IMG/VR virus record: IMGVR_UViG_3300017917_001081
Coordinates: 1 to 20,689 of that record
Reading direction: 5' to 3' (one strand)
Source: a virus
DNA length: 20,689 nucleotides
A program made the position numbers and the translations under genes. Positions within the stretch are counted from its first letter, which is position 1. Every line of letters starts with the position of its first letter. The notes under the pieces were generated by a model. That model did no database searches and was not told where the DNA came from. It saw only the letters and a list, made by a program, of their open reading frames with translations. Shown here one piece after another: positions 3,904 to 15,895 of the stretch.

Positions 3904-4200
3904 ATGGAAAATCAAGAACAACAACCAGAATTACAATTAGAGCAGAAAGAACTCACACCTATTTTTCCATGTGAGTGGTGCTTCACATTTGATGATGATG
4001 AGCCACAAGTGTTCGCTGCTACTAATGAGAAAGTAAATGACCAAGAACCAGCTATTAGATTGATTTTAGCTAACACTAAAGAAACTACAGTTACCTTTCA
4101 ACATGAAGGAAAAACTTTTAAATTATTCTGTAGAGAATTAACCGAAGCTGGTCAAAATTTAATTAACCAAAATAACGAAGAGCAAAATGATAGAAGTTAA
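3904..4200 (+). CDS. Unknown protein with Gln/Glu-rich N-terminus, 98 aa
   Basis: No family is recognised. The first 17 residues are Gln/Glu-rich and likely disordered. Then comes PCEWCFTFDDDEP with a C-x-x-C pair, followed by a likely beta domain (TTVTFQHEGKTFKLFCREL) and a polar tail. A single C-x-x-C is not enough to claim a zinc ribbon. It overlaps the next gene by 14 nt in another frame. Confidence 0.7.
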   Translation: MENQEQQPELQLEQKELTPIFPCEWCFTFDDDEPQVFAATNEKVNDQEPAIRLILANTKETTVTFQHEGKTFKLFCRELTEAGQNLINQNNEEQNDRS

Positions 4201-4387
4201 AGATTATAGAGCACTCATCAGACATGGTGATTTAAAGAAGATTTGTGCTATCACTGGGCTTACGCCTTACTTGTTAAACACAAGATTAAGTAAGCACGAC
4301 TACGAGACAGAGGAAATTGTTAAAGCATACTATGCTAAAAAATTAGAAGCACTAAAAAACCAAATAAATGATTACAGTGAAGAATAG
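4187..4387 (+). CDS. Small HTH-like protein, 66 aa
   Basis: Residues about 12-32 (DLKKICAITGLTPYLLNTRLS) have the pattern of a helix-turn-helix: a helix, a Thr-Gly-Leu turn and a recognition helix. A second helical part follows, YYAKKLEALKNQI. It could be a small DNA-binding protein of the replication or recombination module. It overlaps its upstream neighbour by 14 nt and its downstream neighbour by 20 nt. A regulator and a replication accessory are both possible; the HTH reading is by eye. Confidence 0.65.
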   Translation: MIEVKDYRALIRHGDLKKICAITGLTPYLLNTRLSKHDYETEEIVKAYYAKKLEALKNQINDYSEE

Positions 4388-4742
4388 ACCATCGAGAGAG
4401 CACTTGATGAGCAATAAACCGATTGAGATTGAAAAATCTATTTACAAAGATGTTATAAATAATGTAGCTAATCAATTTGAGCTATCTACAAAAAAACTTT
4501 TAAGTAAAGATAGATACAGAAAACAAGTATTAGCAAGGAATATGGCGTATTATATTCTACACACAGCTTACAAACAAAAAGCTGCACAGATAGCACCACA
4601 TTTCAAAAGAGATAGAACTACTATCCTACATGGCTTAAACACTTTTGTAAACGACATAGAAGTAATACCATTTTACATGGAGAAGTATGAGAAAGTAATG
4701 GACACTTTATTTGAACCACAAAACATTTATTCACTACAATAA
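4368..4742 (+). CDS. Stand-alone DnaA domain IV-like DNA-binding protein, 124 aa
   Basis: Residues about 28-95 match the C-terminal duplex-DNA-binding domain of the initiator DnaA: VANQFELSTKKLLS, then RYRKQVLARNMAYYIL, and the signature-like DRTTILHGL (DnaA: RDHTTVLHA). No AAA+ ATPase domain is present, so it cannot be a full initiator. It may bind DnaA boxes or phage origin repeats, or interfere with host DnaA. I keep the start at 4368, which has an A-rich leader; an internal ATG at 4407 would remove the overlap with the previous gene. It sits at the head of the replication and recombination genes, consistent with a role at the origin. Confidence 0.85.
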   Translation: MITVKNRPSREHLMSNKPIEIEKSIYKDVINNVANQFELSTKKLLSKDRYRKQVLARNMAYYILHTAYKQKAAQIAPHFKRDRTTILHGLNTFVNDIEVIPFYMEKYEKVMDTLFEPQNIYSLQ

Positions 4743-4752
4743 AACAACAACT

Positions 4753-4965
4753 ATGTTATCTACATTTCAACTATTATCAGAGCAAGACAAAAAGCTATTT
4801 ATGGCTAAGATTTGCAATGAGATTAATTACAATCAAGCTTCTTATAATCTATTAAAGTTATTAGTTAGCTATTGGGATGAAAACCCAATCAATGATGTAA
4901 CTTATTTTCCACAACAATTTAATAAACCTTTAAACAGACTACAAAATGGACAATCAAATAACTAA
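4753..4965 (+). CDS. Small helical unknown protein, 70 aa
   Basis: No family is recognised. I place the start at the ATG at 4753 (MLSTFQLLSEQDKK), behind AAAACAACAACT. An upstream TTG frame at 4711 would overlap the DnaA-like gene and lacks this leader. The protein is helical with several aromatic residues and ends NGQSNN. It overlaps the next gene by 20 nt in another frame, so translation of the two is probably linked. Confidence 0.65.
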   Translation: MLSTFQLLSEQDKKLFMAKICNEINYNQASYNLLKLLVSYWDENPINDVTYFPQQFNKPLNRLQNGQSNN

Positions 4966-5635
4966 ACCAACGTATGACATCGTAAACAAAGACTCGATGT
5001 TATCTCTTAGCAACGAACTTGCTAAACTAATCAAAGAAAAAAACCTTTCAACTACTATTCAAAGAAAGGAATATGTAAATGTTTCTGGATGGCAGTTTGC
5101 TGGTTCAGCACTTGGACTAATGCCAATCATTACAGAAATTACTGACTTGACTCGTAGAGGTGAGCAACCTGGTCAAGTAGAGTTTAAGTACTTAGCTAAG
5201 TGTGAAGTAAGGAAAATTACTACTGGTGAAGTGGTATCTACTGGAGTAGCATTATGTTCCTCTTTTGAAAGAACTAAAGCATCTTTTGATGAGTATGCAA
5301 TCTTATCAATGGCACAAACAAGAGCAATAGGTAAGGCGTATCGTAACTTACTTGCTTGGTTAATGAACGCAGCTGGATTCGAAGCAACACCAGCAGAAGA
5401 AATGGACTTTGCAGTTCAAGAAACTCCTAAACAACCATCTAAACCAGTTGTAGAAGTAGTAGCTGAGATTTTAGAAGAAGGACCAAGTAAAGAAGAGTTA
5501 ATGATGGAGATTGCTAAGTGCACTAAAGTTAAGCAATTAACTGATTTATATTATGGATATAAACAAGCATTTGATGCTGATGAAACATTAATGGCCGTAT
5601 TGAAAGCTAAAAAACAAAATCTAACAACAAAATAA
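4946..5635 (+). CDS. Putative phage strand-annealing/recombination-type protein, 229 aa
   Basis: The core (about residues 40-150) has SGWQFAGSALGLMP, a beta region with CEVRKITTGEVV, and the strongly conserved AILSMAQTRAIGKAYRNLLAW followed by AGFEATPAEEMD. I recognise this block from many phage proteins that sit with replication and recombination genes and are usually treated as single-strand annealing or ssDNA-handling proteins, but activity is not proven for this family as far as I know. Residues 155-180 are a Pro/Val/Glu-rich linker and the rest is a helical tail. It lies between the DnaA-like gene and helicase-loading genes, which supports a DNA-metabolism role. Confidence 0.8.
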   Translation: MDNQITKPTYDIVNKDSMLSLSNELAKLIKEKNLSTTIQRKEYVNVSGWQFAGSALGLMPIITEITDLTRRGEQPGQVEFKYLAKCEVRKITTGEVVSTGVALCSSFERTKASFDEYAILSMAQTRAIGKAYRNLLAWLMNAAGFEATPAEEMDFAVQETPKQPSKPVVEVVAEILEEGPSKEELMMEIAKCTKVKQLTDLYYGYKQAFDADETLMAVLKAKKQNLTTK

Positions 5636-6811: not shown

Positions 6812-7006
6812 ATGAAACTACAAAAAAGAAAATTTGCTACACCTACAACATCAATACCTATATGGGGGTTACCATTTTGTTCATATTTAATTCAAAAATC
6901 ATTAGGAATAATTAGTCAAGGTAGAGATTGGTATTGGTTTTTTTGTATTTCCTTAGCATTTTTAGTTTGGTTAACATTAAATTTTAAATTAACTAAAACA
7001 AAGTAA
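6812..7006 (+). CDS. Small membrane protein, 64 aa
   Basis: The N-terminus is basic (MKLQKRKF), residues 14-32 are moderately hydrophobic and 41-58 form a clear membrane helix (YWFFCISLAFLVWLTLNF) with a Lys-rich end. Topology is therefore one or two spans. No family is recognised. The stop overlaps the next start by one base (TAATG), coupling it to the replication protein gene. Confidence 0.65.
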   Translation: MKLQKRKFATPTTSIPIWGLPFCSYLIQKSLGIISQGRDWYWFFCISLAFLVWLTLNFKLTKTK

Positions 7007-7605
7007 TGTCTCAATTTTACACAACAATTATTCACCCAGTTAGAAAGCACTTTAAGCTATCTTGCAACGAATACTGCATATTAGATACGATTATGCGTAT
7101 GCAGAACAATGAGAGCAACTGGTGCTATATGAGCAGAGAAACAATGGCAAAGGACCTTGATTTATCTAAACAATCTATTTTAAACATTATAAACAAGTTA
7201 GTAGACTTAGGATTACTAACGAAAAACGTAAGTACTAAACACCTTAGAGTTACTTCTATTTTTCAAGAGCACATAAACAATTACAAAAACTTTACCGATG
7301 GTAAAGAAAGTTTACTTGAAGAGTCAAAAAACTTTACCGAAAATGGTAAAAAAACTTTACCTAACAATAATACTAACAATAAGAATACATTTATAGTACC
7401 AAAACCAGAACAAGTTAGTGATTATGCTAAGGAATTAGGATTTACTTTAGATGGTAACCATTTTGTTGACCACTACGAAGCAAGAGGATGGTTAATAGGT
7501 AAGAATAAGATGAAAGATTGGAAAGCTGCAGTTAGAACTTGGAAACGAAACAGTAGTACTTTTACTACCAATACACAACAACCAACTAAAATATCACTTA
7601 AATAA
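7006..7605 (+). CDS. DnaD/O-like replisome organiser (winged helix), 199 aa
   Basis: Residues about 15-85 are a winged-helix domain (SCNEYCILDTIMRM, MSRETMAKDLDLSKQSILNIINKL, DLGLLTKN). Residues 90-128 are an Asn/Lys-rich linker. The end (about 135-182) has VSDYAKELGFTLDGNHFVDHYEARGW and DWKAAVRTWKRN, the C-terminal pattern of phage replication proteins that bind the origin and load the helicase. This fits its place just upstream of the DnaB gene. The family assignment is from pattern memory. It shares one base with each neighbour's start or stop (TAATG), so synthesis is coupled. Confidence 0.85.
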   Translation: MSQFYTTIIHPVRKHFKLSCNEYCILDTIMRMQNNESNWCYMSRETMAKDLDLSKQSILNIINKLVDLGLLTKNVSTKHLRVTSIFQEHINNYKNFTDGKESLLEESKNFTENGKKTLPNNNTNNKNTFIVPKPEQVSDYAKELGFTLDGNHFVDHYEARGWLIGKNKMKDWKAAVRTWKRNSSTFTTNTQQPTKISLK

Positions 7606-7877
7606 TGGATATTATAAATAGTAAAGATTTAATATTTAGTCATTTTAAAAATAGACTTAAAGAAAGATATGATATTGATATAACATACAAGCAATATATA
7701 TCACTATGTTTTAATGAATCGTTATTTTCACACGTTTACTCTCATAATAAAAAGAAAAATGTTGTACTATTTAGATATAATGAACAATGGATTATTGGAG
7801 TAAGAGATAAAAAGGGTTATTTAATTACTTGTTTACCAATTCAAAAATTAAATAAAATTTTAACACAAAAAATATAA
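7605..7877 (+). CDS. Unknown protein between replication genes, 90 aa
   Basis: The N-terminal helical part has HFKNRLKERYDIDITYKQYI; the rest is a likely beta-sheet (VVLFRYNEQWIIGVRDKKGYLITCLP). This layout resembles small phage and RelE/BrnT-like proteins with an RhLxxR-type start, but no catalytic residues can be assigned. Its codons are more A+T-biased than those of both neighbours, like the homing endonuclease gene downstream, so it may be a recent insertion. One-base overlaps (TAATG) with both neighbours nevertheless tie it into the operon. Confidence 0.7.
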   Translation: MDIINSKDLIFSHFKNRLKERYDIDITYKQYISLCFNESLFSHVYSHNKKKNVVLFRYNEQWIIGVRDKKGYLITCLPIQKLNKILTQKI

Positions 7878-9211
7878 TGGAAGCTATAATTCTACCACAC
7901 AACAAGGACTTAGAAAAAACAATATTGGGTACGATATTAATGGATAAGAGAGTGCTTCCTTTAATAGTTGGACACCTAAAAACTGAGATATTCTACGATT
8001 TGGGACACCAAAAAATCTTCTCAGCCATTAAAAAGATGTACGATGATGGCGTTTATGTAGATATAACTACTCTTAATCAAAAATTAGTAGGTGATGAATC
8101 TTACAAAGAATTAGGAGGTGCTTACTACCTTACGAAGCTTACTGATAACATCACTGGTAATTACAATATCAATAGCCATGTTGAGATGCTAATTGAGCTG
8201 TATAAGAAGCGTGAAGCATTTATCCTATTTAAACAAACAGAAGTAGAGTGCTTAGATAACGATAGTCAATCTATAGATTTACTTTCTATGGTAAATAGTA
8301 AACTTATAGCTTTACAAGAGTTTGGTAATATCCATGAAAAAACCATTGATGATGTAATTTTATCACTGAATTACTCAAGAGATAAGGCACAAAATGGAGA
8401 ATTGTTAGGTTTTAGCACTGGTTTTGAGGAACTAAACAACACCTTAGCTGGATGGTGCAAACCAGACTTTGTGGTTATAGCTGCAAGACCAGGAATGGGT
8501 AAGACAGCGTTCATGTTATCAACCATATATCACTTGTGTATCTTAAATAAGGTTCCTACGGCTGTTTTTAGCCTCGAAATGAGCTCCGAACAGCTTGTTG
8601 AAAGGTTAGAGTCAATTACGAGTATGATACCGTTAAAACGCCTTAGAATGAATTTAATGAATGATGAGGAAAGGAAGATACTCATGAAAACAGATGACAA
8701 GATTTTACTATCCCCCCTACATATTGAAGATACTGGCGGTATAAGTATCTCACAACTCCGAGCTAAAGCTACCATAATGAAGCAGAAGTACGGTATTAAG
8801 GCAGTTTTTATCGATTACTTACAGCTTATGAGTGGACAAGGCAAGTCAAACCAAAACAGAGAGCAAGAGGTTAGTACAATAAGCAGAAGCCTTAAAGCGT
8901 TAGCTAAGGAGTTGGAGTTACCTATTATCGCCTTATCTCAATTGTCTCGTAGAGTAGAAGAACGAGCTGATAAGATGCCACAATTATCAGACTTAAGAGA
9001 ATCTGGGTCTATCGAACAAGACGCTGATGCTGTTATTATGCTAATGAGGCCTAACTACTATGAGATGACTAATCCAATAGAAATTGGAGGAACTGAATAT
9101 GCTACAAGTGATTTAGTTATCTGTAAGGTTGAAAAGAACAGACATGGTACAACCAAAAATATACCACTTAGATTTTTACCAGAAACAATGACTTTTATTG
9201 ATTATAAATAA
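7877..9211 (+). CDS. dnaB: DnaB-type replicative helicase, 444 aa
   Basis: The N-terminal domain (about 1-105) has the DnaB pattern NKDLEKTILGTILMD and HQKIFSAIKKMYDDG. The RecA-like ATPase domain follows: Walker A ARPGMGKTAF (about 201-210), FSLEMSSEQLVERL, Walker B VFIDYLQLM (about 310-318), SRSLKALAKELELPIIALSQLSR, and LRESGSIEQDADAVIMLMRP near 375-395. The length is normal for bacterial and phage DnaB. It forms the hexameric helicase that unwinds the fork 5' to 3', presumably loaded by the winged-helix protein upstream. The gene overlaps each neighbour by one base (TAATG). Confidence 0.97.
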   Translation: MEAIILPHNKDLEKTILGTILMDKRVLPLIVGHLKTEIFYDLGHQKIFSAIKKMYDDGVYVDITTLNQKLVGDESYKELGGAYYLTKLTDNITGNYNINSHVEMLIELYKKREAFILFKQTEVECLDNDSQSIDLLSMVNSKLIALQEFGNIHEKTIDDVILSLNYSRDKAQNGELLGFSTGFEELNNTLAGWCKPDFVVIAARPGMGKTAFMLSTIYHLCILNKVPTAVFSLEMSSEQLVERLESITSMIPLKRLRMNLMNDEERKILMKTDDKILLSPLHIEDTGGISISQLRAKATIMKQKYGIKAVFIDYLQLMSGQGKSNQNREQEVSTISRSLKALAKELELPIIALSQLSRRVEERADKMPQLSDLRESGSIEQDADAVIMLMRPNYYEMTNPIEIGGTEYATSDLVICKVEKNRHGTTKNIPLRFLPETMTFIDYK

Positions 9212-9613: not shown

Positions 9614-10108
9614 ATGGAATCAAAAATAATATATAAATATTATGAAATTTTTGAAGATGGCACACTATTTAGCCATAAAACAAAAAGATATTTATCTCCT
9701 AACAAAGATAAATTAGGATATGTAGGATATAATATTTTTATTGACGGTAAAAATAAAAGATTTTATGGACATAGATTAGTTGCTATTAATTTTATTGATA
9801 ATAAATTTAATTATAAAGAAGTTAATCATAAAGATTGTAATAGGTCAAATAATCATAAGTCAAATTTAGAATGGGTAAATAGAGTTCAAAATGTAAGATA
9901 TTCTATTGATTTTGGTGGTAGAAAGAAAGGTGATGTAAAAAAGATTAAGATACATAGAAAAAGTAGTAAAATAATTTTAGACTTTGATACTGGTATATTT
10001 TATGAATCAACAAGATATGCAGCAGAAGCTAAAAATATTAATAGAAGTTCTTTAATTGGTAAATTAAGTGGTAATTTTAAAAATAATACATCACTTAAAT
10101 ACGTATAA
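9614..10108 (+). CDS. HNH homing endonuclease (NUMOD4-HNH-NUMOD1 type), 164 aa
   Basis: The N-terminal part (about 5-35, YYEIFEDGTLFSHKTKRYL) is NUMOD4-like. The HNH nuclease has GHRLVA (His53), VNHKDCNRSNN (Asn71, His72) and SNLEWVN (Asn84 region). The C-terminal part (about 120-164, ILDFDTGIFYESTRYAAEA then RSSLIGKLSG) is a NUMOD1-type DNA-binding module. It cuts DNA at a specific site and promotes its own spread. The gene is markedly A+T-richer than its neighbours, has its own promoter-like site and sits between two intact genes, so it is free-standing rather than inside an intron. It is one base from the next gene. Confidence 0.93.
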   Translation: MESKIIYKYYEIFEDGTLFSHKTKRYLSPNKDKLGYVGYNIFIDGKNKRFYGHRLVAINFIDNKFNYKEVNHKDCNRSNNHKSNLEWVNRVQNVRYSIDFGGRKKGDVKKIKIHRKSSKIILDFDTGIFYESTRYAAEAKNINRSSLIGKLSGNFKNNTSLKYV

Positions 10109-12037: not shown

Positions 12038-12778
12038 CTACTTATCTGTCTTAGAAGAGAACTTTCCGCAAGTTTTACATCTATATTGGATTCTAACAAG
12101 ACCAGTAGCTGTTACTGTTTTCTTTGCCCTTATAAGCTCATCTGAGCCACATTCTGGGCAGCTTCCTCTGTCCTCACCGAATATTACGCCATAATGAGAT
12201 TTAGGCTCTATATGGTGCTGTAATGCCTTAAAGACTTCCTCTAACAATGATACGTCTTTTTTGCAATACTTAATCATCTTTTCCATGGCAATTTTATCCT
12301 TGTTTAAAAGAATATCTTTCCACAGATTAAATTCGGTTTTTATCTTCTGGCCTAAGCCTAAAAAGTCTGCTATGTAGTTGAGTCTGTTAGAGTTAAATCT
12401 AAACTTTGACCTTGCTACTTTTAAAGTATCGATAGTAGTGTACTTAGGGAACATTGGTATCTTATGAAATAAACACCTTGTTCTAATCCAAGCTAAGTCA
12501 AATTTATCACCATTATGACCTACTAATTCAGTAGCTGTGTCAGCCACTTCAATAAACTTTTCAAGCATTCTTTTGTCGCACTGCTTCGAATCCCAGTTTA
12601 GGGAAAACACCTCTTTATCTCCTTCCCACTTGTAACAAATACAGATAATAGCCCTTTCTTTGATAATGTTAGAATAATCAATATTCTTTTTAAATCCAGC
12701 TTCCCAGAATAATCCAATATTGGGAGAAGTTTCAATGTCAAAAAACAGACGTTTTCTGTGGGTTTTGTTGGTGCTCAT
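12038..12778 (-). CDS. RNase H-fold 3'-5' exonuclease with C-terminal zinc ribbon, 246 aa
   Basis: The three DEDD exonuclease motifs are visible: FFDIETS (Asp14, Glu16), GHNGDKFDLAW (Asn89, Asp94) and YCKKDVSLLEE (Tyr171, Asp175; DEDDy-like). The C-terminus has CPECG (207, 210) and CKTCG (234, 237), a four-cysteine zinc ribbon that may contact nucleic acid. This is the pattern of polymerase-B-proofreading-like or YprB-like exonucleases. Its place in the late strand next to lysis genes is unusual, since DNA metabolism genes are on the other strand here. A role in DNA processing or degradation of nucleic acid is inferred. The leader contains AACCAAAACCAAACAT. Confidence 0.9.
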   Translation of the reverse strand: MSTNKTHRKRLFFDIETSPNIGLFWEAGFKKNIDYSNIIKERAIICICYKWEGDKEVFSLNWDSKQCDKRMLEKFIEVADTATELVGHNGDKFDLAWIRTRCLFHKIPMFPKYTTIDTLKVARSKFRFNSNRLNYIADFLGLGQKIKTEFNLWKDILLNKDKIAMEKMIKYCKKDVSLLEEVFKALQHHIEPKSHYGVIFGEDRGSCPECGSDELIRAKKTVTATGLVRIQYRCKTCGKFSSKTDK

Positions 12779-15094: not shown

Positions 15095-15472
15095 TTATGC
15101 TAAAGTATAATCTCCAGTTCCTTGCAAACTTACAGAATACGTAGCAACTCCTTCTACTGGTCCATCAACTGACACAGATTCAATATTGCAAGTGCCAGAA
15201 AACACCTTAGTTCCGATTGTAAAAGTCACAGAAATCTGAGTATTATTCTCTTGGTCTGTAAGCATATCAAAATAATCGTAGTTGTCTAAAGTAACAAGTC
15301 CTTCACAACTAATTGTAAAAGATTTGAAACCATAAGCATATTCTTTTCTAAATGAAGATGATTTATTTGTTACATCTATTTGTTCTGATGATACGTCTAA
15401 TGTGCAAGATGTGGATGCTGCAAACACAGTTCCACTTTTAGCTAAAATTACGTCTGTTCCGTTAATTGCCAT
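15095..15472 (-). CDS. Phage tail tube-type protein, copy A, 125 aa
   Basis: Starts MAINGTDVILAKSG and has the Bacteroidota tail-tube pattern: CTLDVSSEQIDVTNKSS, FKSFTISCEGLV, LDNYDYFDML, then a beta sheet and the end EGVATYSVSLQGTGDYTL. This matches the TP901-1-like tail tube fold in which beta proteins stack as hexamer rings. It is clearly paralogous to the gene upstream. Its position after the distal tail gene is unusual for the main tube gene, so it may instead be a tail tip or decoration relative. Confidence 0.85.
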   Translation of the reverse strand: MAINGTDVILAKSGTVFAASTSCTLDVSSEQIDVTNKSSSFRKEYAYGFKSFTISCEGLVTLDNYDYFDMLTDQENNTQISVTFTIGTKVFSGTCNIESVSVDGPVEGVATYSVSLQGTGDYTLA

Positions 15473-15490
15473 TTTATTATATTTTTATTT

Positions 15491-15895
15491 TTATACGAAT
15501 GTGTAAGCCCCAGTTCCTTTAAGTGATACAGAATAAGTACCAGCACCTTCTGCTGGTGCATTTAAGTCTACAGAAGTTACATAAACTTCTGCATTAACAG
15601 TAACAGTTCCATCTAAATTAACTATTTGAAACTTAACTGTTAGTTTAGTACGAGCTATTTGAGCATCTAATAAGTCTTTATAGTCATAGTTATCTCTTGT
15701 AACAAAACCATCTGCTGTAATTTCAAACTCCATATTTGTTGGCAAATACTCCTTAAAGTTACCAGAAGCACCAGTTGTCACCTCTATTAAAGATGAACTT
15801 GTAGAAAATGAGCAAGTTGTAGATGCTCCAAAGACGTTACCAGCTGATACTGAATCTTTATAAAGAACCATATTGTTCCCAAGTGTAATAGGCAT
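15491..15895 (-). CDS. Phage tail tube-type protein, copy B, 134 aa
   Basis: Paralogue of the next gene on this strand. Shared blocks are CxxxxSxxxIxVT, MEFEITADGFVTRDNYDYKDLL, and EGAGTYSVSLKGTGAYTF. It is slightly longer in the NLDGTVTVN loop. The same beta-fold and ring-forming role are expected. The two may form alternate rings or differ in site of action. It lies 18 bases before copy A and 11 bases after the large tail protein gene. Confidence 0.85.
   Translation of the reverse strand: MPITLGNNMVLYKDSVSAGNVFGASTTCSFSTSSSLIEVTTGASGNFKEYLPTNMEFEITADGFVTRDNYDYKDLLDAQIARTKLTVKFQIVNLDGTVTVNAEVYVTSVDLNAPAEGAGTYSVSLKGTGAYTFV

Follow-up and report, generated by a model that had tools for sequence, protein, structure and literature searches.

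A lone DnaA domain IV protein encoded in the early operon of a phage clade, with alleles exchanged between phages with near-identical flanks

Results

The window analysed in this study is an entire IMG/VR record, a linear and incomplete viral sequence of 20,689 bases from an uncultured freshwater phage, and the gene of interest (hereafter the DnaA-IV gene) lies on its plus strand at positions 4368-4742. It starts with ATG, encodes a stand-alone DnaA domain IV protein of 124 aa, and is located in an early operon upstream of the genes for a lambda-O/DnaD-like replication initiator with an HTH_36 N-terminus (7006-7605) and a DnaB-like replicative helicase (7877-9211), both on the plus strand. Its upstream neighbour is always the gene for a helical protein of 66 aa (4187-4387, plus strand), which overlaps it by 20 nt, and downstream on the same strand are the genes for a conserved protein of 70 aa (4753-4965, ATG start at 4753) and a conserved protein of 229 aa (4946-5635). 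The 229-aa protein is ERF-like in a resemblance seen by eye only and is possibly a single-strand annealing protein; no profile matched it. The DnaA-IV gene directly followed the 66-aa gene in 77/77 assessable loci, which came from a search seeded with the 66-aa protein and had enough downstream sequence (three contigs ending too early were left out), and this gene pair is obligate in the clade. Three helices were predicted in the 66-aa protein and no significant match to a known fold was obtained; its assignment as a helix-turn-helix protein was dropped, as neither Pfam nor the fold backs it.

Elsewhere in the window, an HNH endonuclease gene (phrog_59) at 9614-10108 is present in the relative G003 and absent at the same place in G002, and this gene, patchy among close relatives, is a homing-endonuclease-like insertion. 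The frame at 2182-2898 encodes a short protein that looks like a DNA methyltransferase by eye (PCTCLSVSGARH motif), has no Pfam match and is retained in a minority of relatives. On the minus strand, a PolB-type 3'-5' exonuclease with a C-terminal zinc ribbon (phrog_403, RNase_H_2) is encoded at 12038-12778, a position that holds a different gene in G002, and the adjacent paralogous structural genes at 15095-15472 and 15491-15895 both match one single gene in most relatives.

The initial annotation had proposed that the 124-aa protein is the C-terminal DNA-binding domain of DnaA, present in a phage and lacking the ATPase domain, and two of the checks proposed with it, by profile over residues 28-95 and by predicted structure, bore this out. 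The Pfam model PF08299 (Bac_DnaA_C) matched residues 27-91 (4446-4640, plus strand) with E=9.8e-15 and 54.8 bits (curated cut-off 31.5 bits), and neither an AAA+ domain nor any other significant domain was found in the protein by the Pfam scan. The same model was matched by 12/12 scanned members of the family and by no other protein across the whole 20,689-base record. The AAA+ ATPase domain III of a full DnaA initiator is thus absent from a protein that measures 124 aa in all. Among PDB sequences, phmmer matched the DnaA of A. aeolicus (E=0.0012) and E. coli domain IV, 1J1V (E=0.081). The AlphaFold2 model, built from a 27-sequence alignment, had a mean pLDDT of 80.6; its best PDB fold was the DNA-bound DnaA-DBD of M. 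tuberculosis (3PVP, TMt 0.90), and E. coli 1J1V superposed with a TMt of 0.89 and an rmsd of 1.1. At the level of profile and predicted model, the product of 4368-4742 is confirmed as a complete DnaA domain IV without the ATPase.

The DNA-reading residues were numbered from the alignment with 1J1V, a chain of 94 residues that ends at residue 467, so that position n corresponds to residue 373+n. In DnaA, R399 contacts the minor groove to read the 5' portion of the DnaA box, R432-D433-H434-T435-T436 begin the recognition helix, which reads TnCACA, and R399, D433, T435 and T436 are needed for DnaA-box binding (PMC5742627). The equivalent of E. coli R399 is R49 (4512-4514, plus strand), which is invariant in the clade, and the start of the recognition helix is R81-D82-R83-T84-T85 (4608-4622, plus strand). 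The equivalents of R399, R432, D433, T435 and T436 are kept, apart from a few alleles that have K in place of R81. H434 opens the recognition helix, and all alleles of the window's clade have R in its place; the canonical RDHTT is retained by more distant alleles at the same locus. A change of specificity through this substitution is possible, and from these residues the 124-aa protein is tentatively predicted to bind DNA of the DnaA-box type.

Relatives of the 124-aa protein were found on more than 80 viral contigs with 50-82% identity. A scan of the bacterial and archaeal genome collection by two short peptide patterns returned none, a plasmid search returned one marginal match, and among cultured phages only distant proteins of SAR11 phages were matched. 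The neighbouring genes likewise had no close cultured relative, and no cultured member of this clade of phages of about 34 kb was found. Nine near-complete relatives measure about 32.7-34.3 kb, and four of them carry terminal repeats of 121-126 bp, which we read as the mark of circular assemblies. In one of the relatives (L105/L106, G005) the O-like protein encoded across the contig ends is internally repeated after circular joining, probably because of an untrimmed overlap of the contig ends. In these genomes, a divergent intergenic region separates a rightward early operon from a leftward structural block; the structural block appears to consist of HK97-type siphophage genes, to judge from reading of the sequences rather than from profiles. 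A strongly conserved GC-rich element, TTTTATATCARAA...GGGGGGCACAAG...GGTAGGGGGT, stands only in relatives, beside the terminase-side genes of their AT-rich genomes (in L002, for example, from about 6351); it would fall to the left of base 1 of the window and is a candidate cos/packaging site. Because Shine-Dalgarno-like motifs are almost absent (5/135 genes) and the leaders are A-rich, we infer that a Bacteroidota host would fit. A sister group (L200-L218, e.g. L221/L222) carries a DnaA-IV gene with canonical RDHTT at the same locus, and in each of its five longer records a single TTATNCACA lies within or close to the following gene, some 370 nt beyond the point where the DnaA-IV motif starts.

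Alleles of the DnaA-IV gene have been exchanged between phages with near-identical flanks. The genomes G009 and G010 share 97-100% identity in six neighbouring early proteins and 73% in DnaA-IV, and G007 and G011 share 89-97% in three adjacent proteins and about 64% in DnaA-IV. DnaA-IV fell at least 8 points below all three of its neighbours in 115/267 pairs with close flanks, which are not independent of each other; the same drop was seen in 4/150, 48/201 and 34/174 such pairs, equally not independent, for the 66-aa, 70-aa and 229-aa genes, respectively. Fast amino-acid change alone does not account for these differences, which are replacements, because synonymous change was raised too (about 0.35-0.7 in DnaA-IV, against 0.1-0.3 for the most part in the flanks). 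AU tests on the DnaA-IV data rejected the flanking-gene clades (p 2.6e-10, 2e-38 and 5e-6), and those on the flanks rejected a DnaA-IV clade (p 3e-28). Three close genome pairs were compared across their shared early genes, and in two of them DnaA-IV ranked first or second in divergence. As a property special to DnaA-IV, the pattern is suggestive rather than unique, since phages are commonly mosaic and variation is seen in other genes too. Within the protein, 28/57 residues of the core (49-105) are invariant and pN of the core is well below pS; the hypervariable helix-1 segment at residues 23-48 (4434-4511, plus strand) has no invariant position.

Positions 1-482 belong to the divergent intergenic region that precedes the early operon. 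Two plus-strand copies of the 14-mer TACCATTGGTAAAG, at 117-130 and 290-303, flank an AT-rich, partly palindromic block (139-241) that is a candidate unwinding element. The origin-like character that the initial annotation had seen here is credible, because the lowest-GC 100 bp of the genome falls in the divergent intergenic region in 9/9 near-complete relatives; for most of the additional relatives, this stretch is located 3-4 kb upstream of the DnaA-IV gene. The region at 1-480 is thus a reasonable AT-rich origin candidate. GC skew was rejected as further evidence for an origin, being confounded by the divergent arrangement of the genes.

A link between the DnaA-IV protein and the repeats of this region, which had also been suggested, is not supported. 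Phage groups with identical recognition residues in DnaA-IV have different repeats, the sequence of the origin-like region shows no co-variation with the allele of the DnaA-IV gene, and neither the genomes nor the origin candidate is enriched in DnaA boxes, the RDHTT clade included: the box TTATNCACA occurs once in 31 kb of pooled divergent regions. Multiple cognate boxes were accordingly not found in the phage origin region, where the boxes are unenriched and the repeats do not track the allele. Avoidance of DnaA boxes by the phage was considered and rejected, for 10 boxes were counted against about 24 expected, but 17% of permuted patterns were as low. The motifs TGGTAAA/TRGTAAAG reach 1.6-1.8 per kb in the divergent region versus 0.3-0.5 elsewhere; as a cognate box they were rejected, because they were chosen post hoc, are mostly absent from group B despite its identical recognition residues, and show no co-variation with the allele. 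No convincing iteron or other repeated site emerged from an unbiased 8-mer scan.

Discussion

Lone DnaA domain IV proteins are already known and are annotated in many phages, SAR11 phages included, and a library of predicted viral structures shows them to be widespread. The 124-aa protein has the fold, the length and the R399/R432/D433/T435/T436 equivalents of domain IV of bacterial DnaA (PF08299; 1J1V, 3PVP), from which it differs by the absence of domains I-III, the change of H434 to R and a variable N-terminal extension of 26 residues. The stand-alone DnaA C-terminal proteins of tailed phages (e.g. A0A6J7WC85, and A0A6B9LVJ5 of Flavobacterium phage vB_FspS_tooticki6-1) are likewise lone domain IV proteins of 92-190 aa with the same fold, mostly 15-27% and at best 38% identical to the 124-aa protein, itself a lone domain IV of a tailed phage encoded near replication or recombination genes. 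In the SAR11 phages (Pelagibacter phages HTVC034P, Greip and Skadi) a lone domain IV gene is found near a nuclease gene and an ERF annealing gene; these proteins of 160-173 aa show 28-40% identity, have QDHTT with the canonical H and belong to phages of another host phylum. DnaA is among the proteins common to all HTVC010P-related genomes (PMC6811365). Domain IV is also found outside DnaA in the REP-associated/IS200-like transposases of subclass 2.1, but there it is fused to a HuH nuclease and is not a lone phage gene, and its presumed sites are unlike DnaA boxes (PMC6006769). What is added here is the pattern of allele exchange together with two motif classes, RDHTT and RDRTT, at one locus. 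In the papers searched, no function was reported for lone DnaA domain IV genes of phages, and the usual annotation 'DNA replication initiation' may be misleading for a protein that lacks the ATPase domain.

The reading that we slightly prefer, and hold tentatively, is that the DnaA-IV protein, which lacks the ATPase, competes with host DnaA for DnaA boxes of the host, and we lean towards ranking it ahead of an accessory factor at a phage site and, after that, a transcription regulator. Early in infection, the protein would occupy host DnaA boxes at oriC and/or at DnaA-regulated promoters; lacking domains I and III, it would not oligomerise, unwind DNA or load helicase, and its effect would thus be to antagonise host DnaA by competition, leaving replication machinery available to the phage. 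The phage would begin replication with an O-like initiator and a DnaB of its own, the AT-rich divergent region being the probable start site, and the possession of these two proteins would make DnaA unnecessary for this start. The family and fold of the protein and its kept R399, D433, T435 and T436 equivalents are consistent with such competition, as are the lack of DnaA-box enrichment in the phage genomes and origin candidate, and the exchange of alleles against steady flanks, which is expected of a host-facing gene. The constrained core beside a hypervariable helix 1 also fits, since a conserved DNA-reading face may reflect a constant host target and a variable helix 1 a changing protein partner. 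Against competition with host DnaA, the R in place of H434 in the window's clade means that the site read may differ from the DnaA box, the replication and recombination neighbours fit a role on phage DNA equally well, and allele exchange is common in phages, other genes here varying too.

The contacts between DnaA molecules are made by parts of DnaA that are missing from the 124-aa protein. Recruitment of host DnaA to boxes on the phage genome, raised as a possibility in the initial annotation, is therefore unlikely, and the boxes are not enriched. A more elaborate form of the antagonist, an exchangeable allele cassette with a frozen DNA face and a diversifying helix 1, whose alleles are traded to match hosts, seems rather doubtful to us; if true, it would represent an arms race at the step of chromosome initiation. 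The clade offers a natural series for such questions, with one locus, steady neighbours, many alleles and the RDHTT and RDRTT classes, and could reveal whether lone domain IV proteins act on host or phage DNA.

Somewhat less probable than competition with host DnaA, yet a serious possibility, is that the protein serves as an accessory phage initiator, which would bind a diverged phage-specific site, bend or mark the origin and help the O-like protein and DnaB to assemble; this is close to the origin reading of the initial annotation. The operon shared with the initiator and the helicase, the constant presence of the gene and the AT-rich origin candidate with repeats upstream agree with it, the change of H434 to R could mean a new site, and the SAR11 phages likewise keep such a gene near that of an annealing protein. 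The density of TGGTAAA/TRGTAAAG in the divergent region points the same way, but these motifs were picked post hoc and are mostly missing in group B despite the same recognition residues, the divergent region does not co-vary with the allele, and the 8-mer scan revealed no convincing repeated site.

A transcription regulator, a DnaA-like repressor or activator of phage (or host) promoters acting perhaps with the 66-aa protein, is a less probable reading again, though one well ahead of a decayed gene. Domain IV on its own binds DNA in a sequence-specific manner, gene regulation is a further role of bacterial DnaA, and the small DnaA-IV gene of the early operon overlaps the frame of a second small helical protein; that protein, however, has no confirmed DNA-binding fold, and the scans made yielded zero candidate operators. 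A non-functional remnant of a bacterial dnaA gene, which would explain why only domain IV is left, is highly improbable, as the gene is intact in all relatives and present at every assessable locus, and its core is strongly constrained, with pN well below pS.
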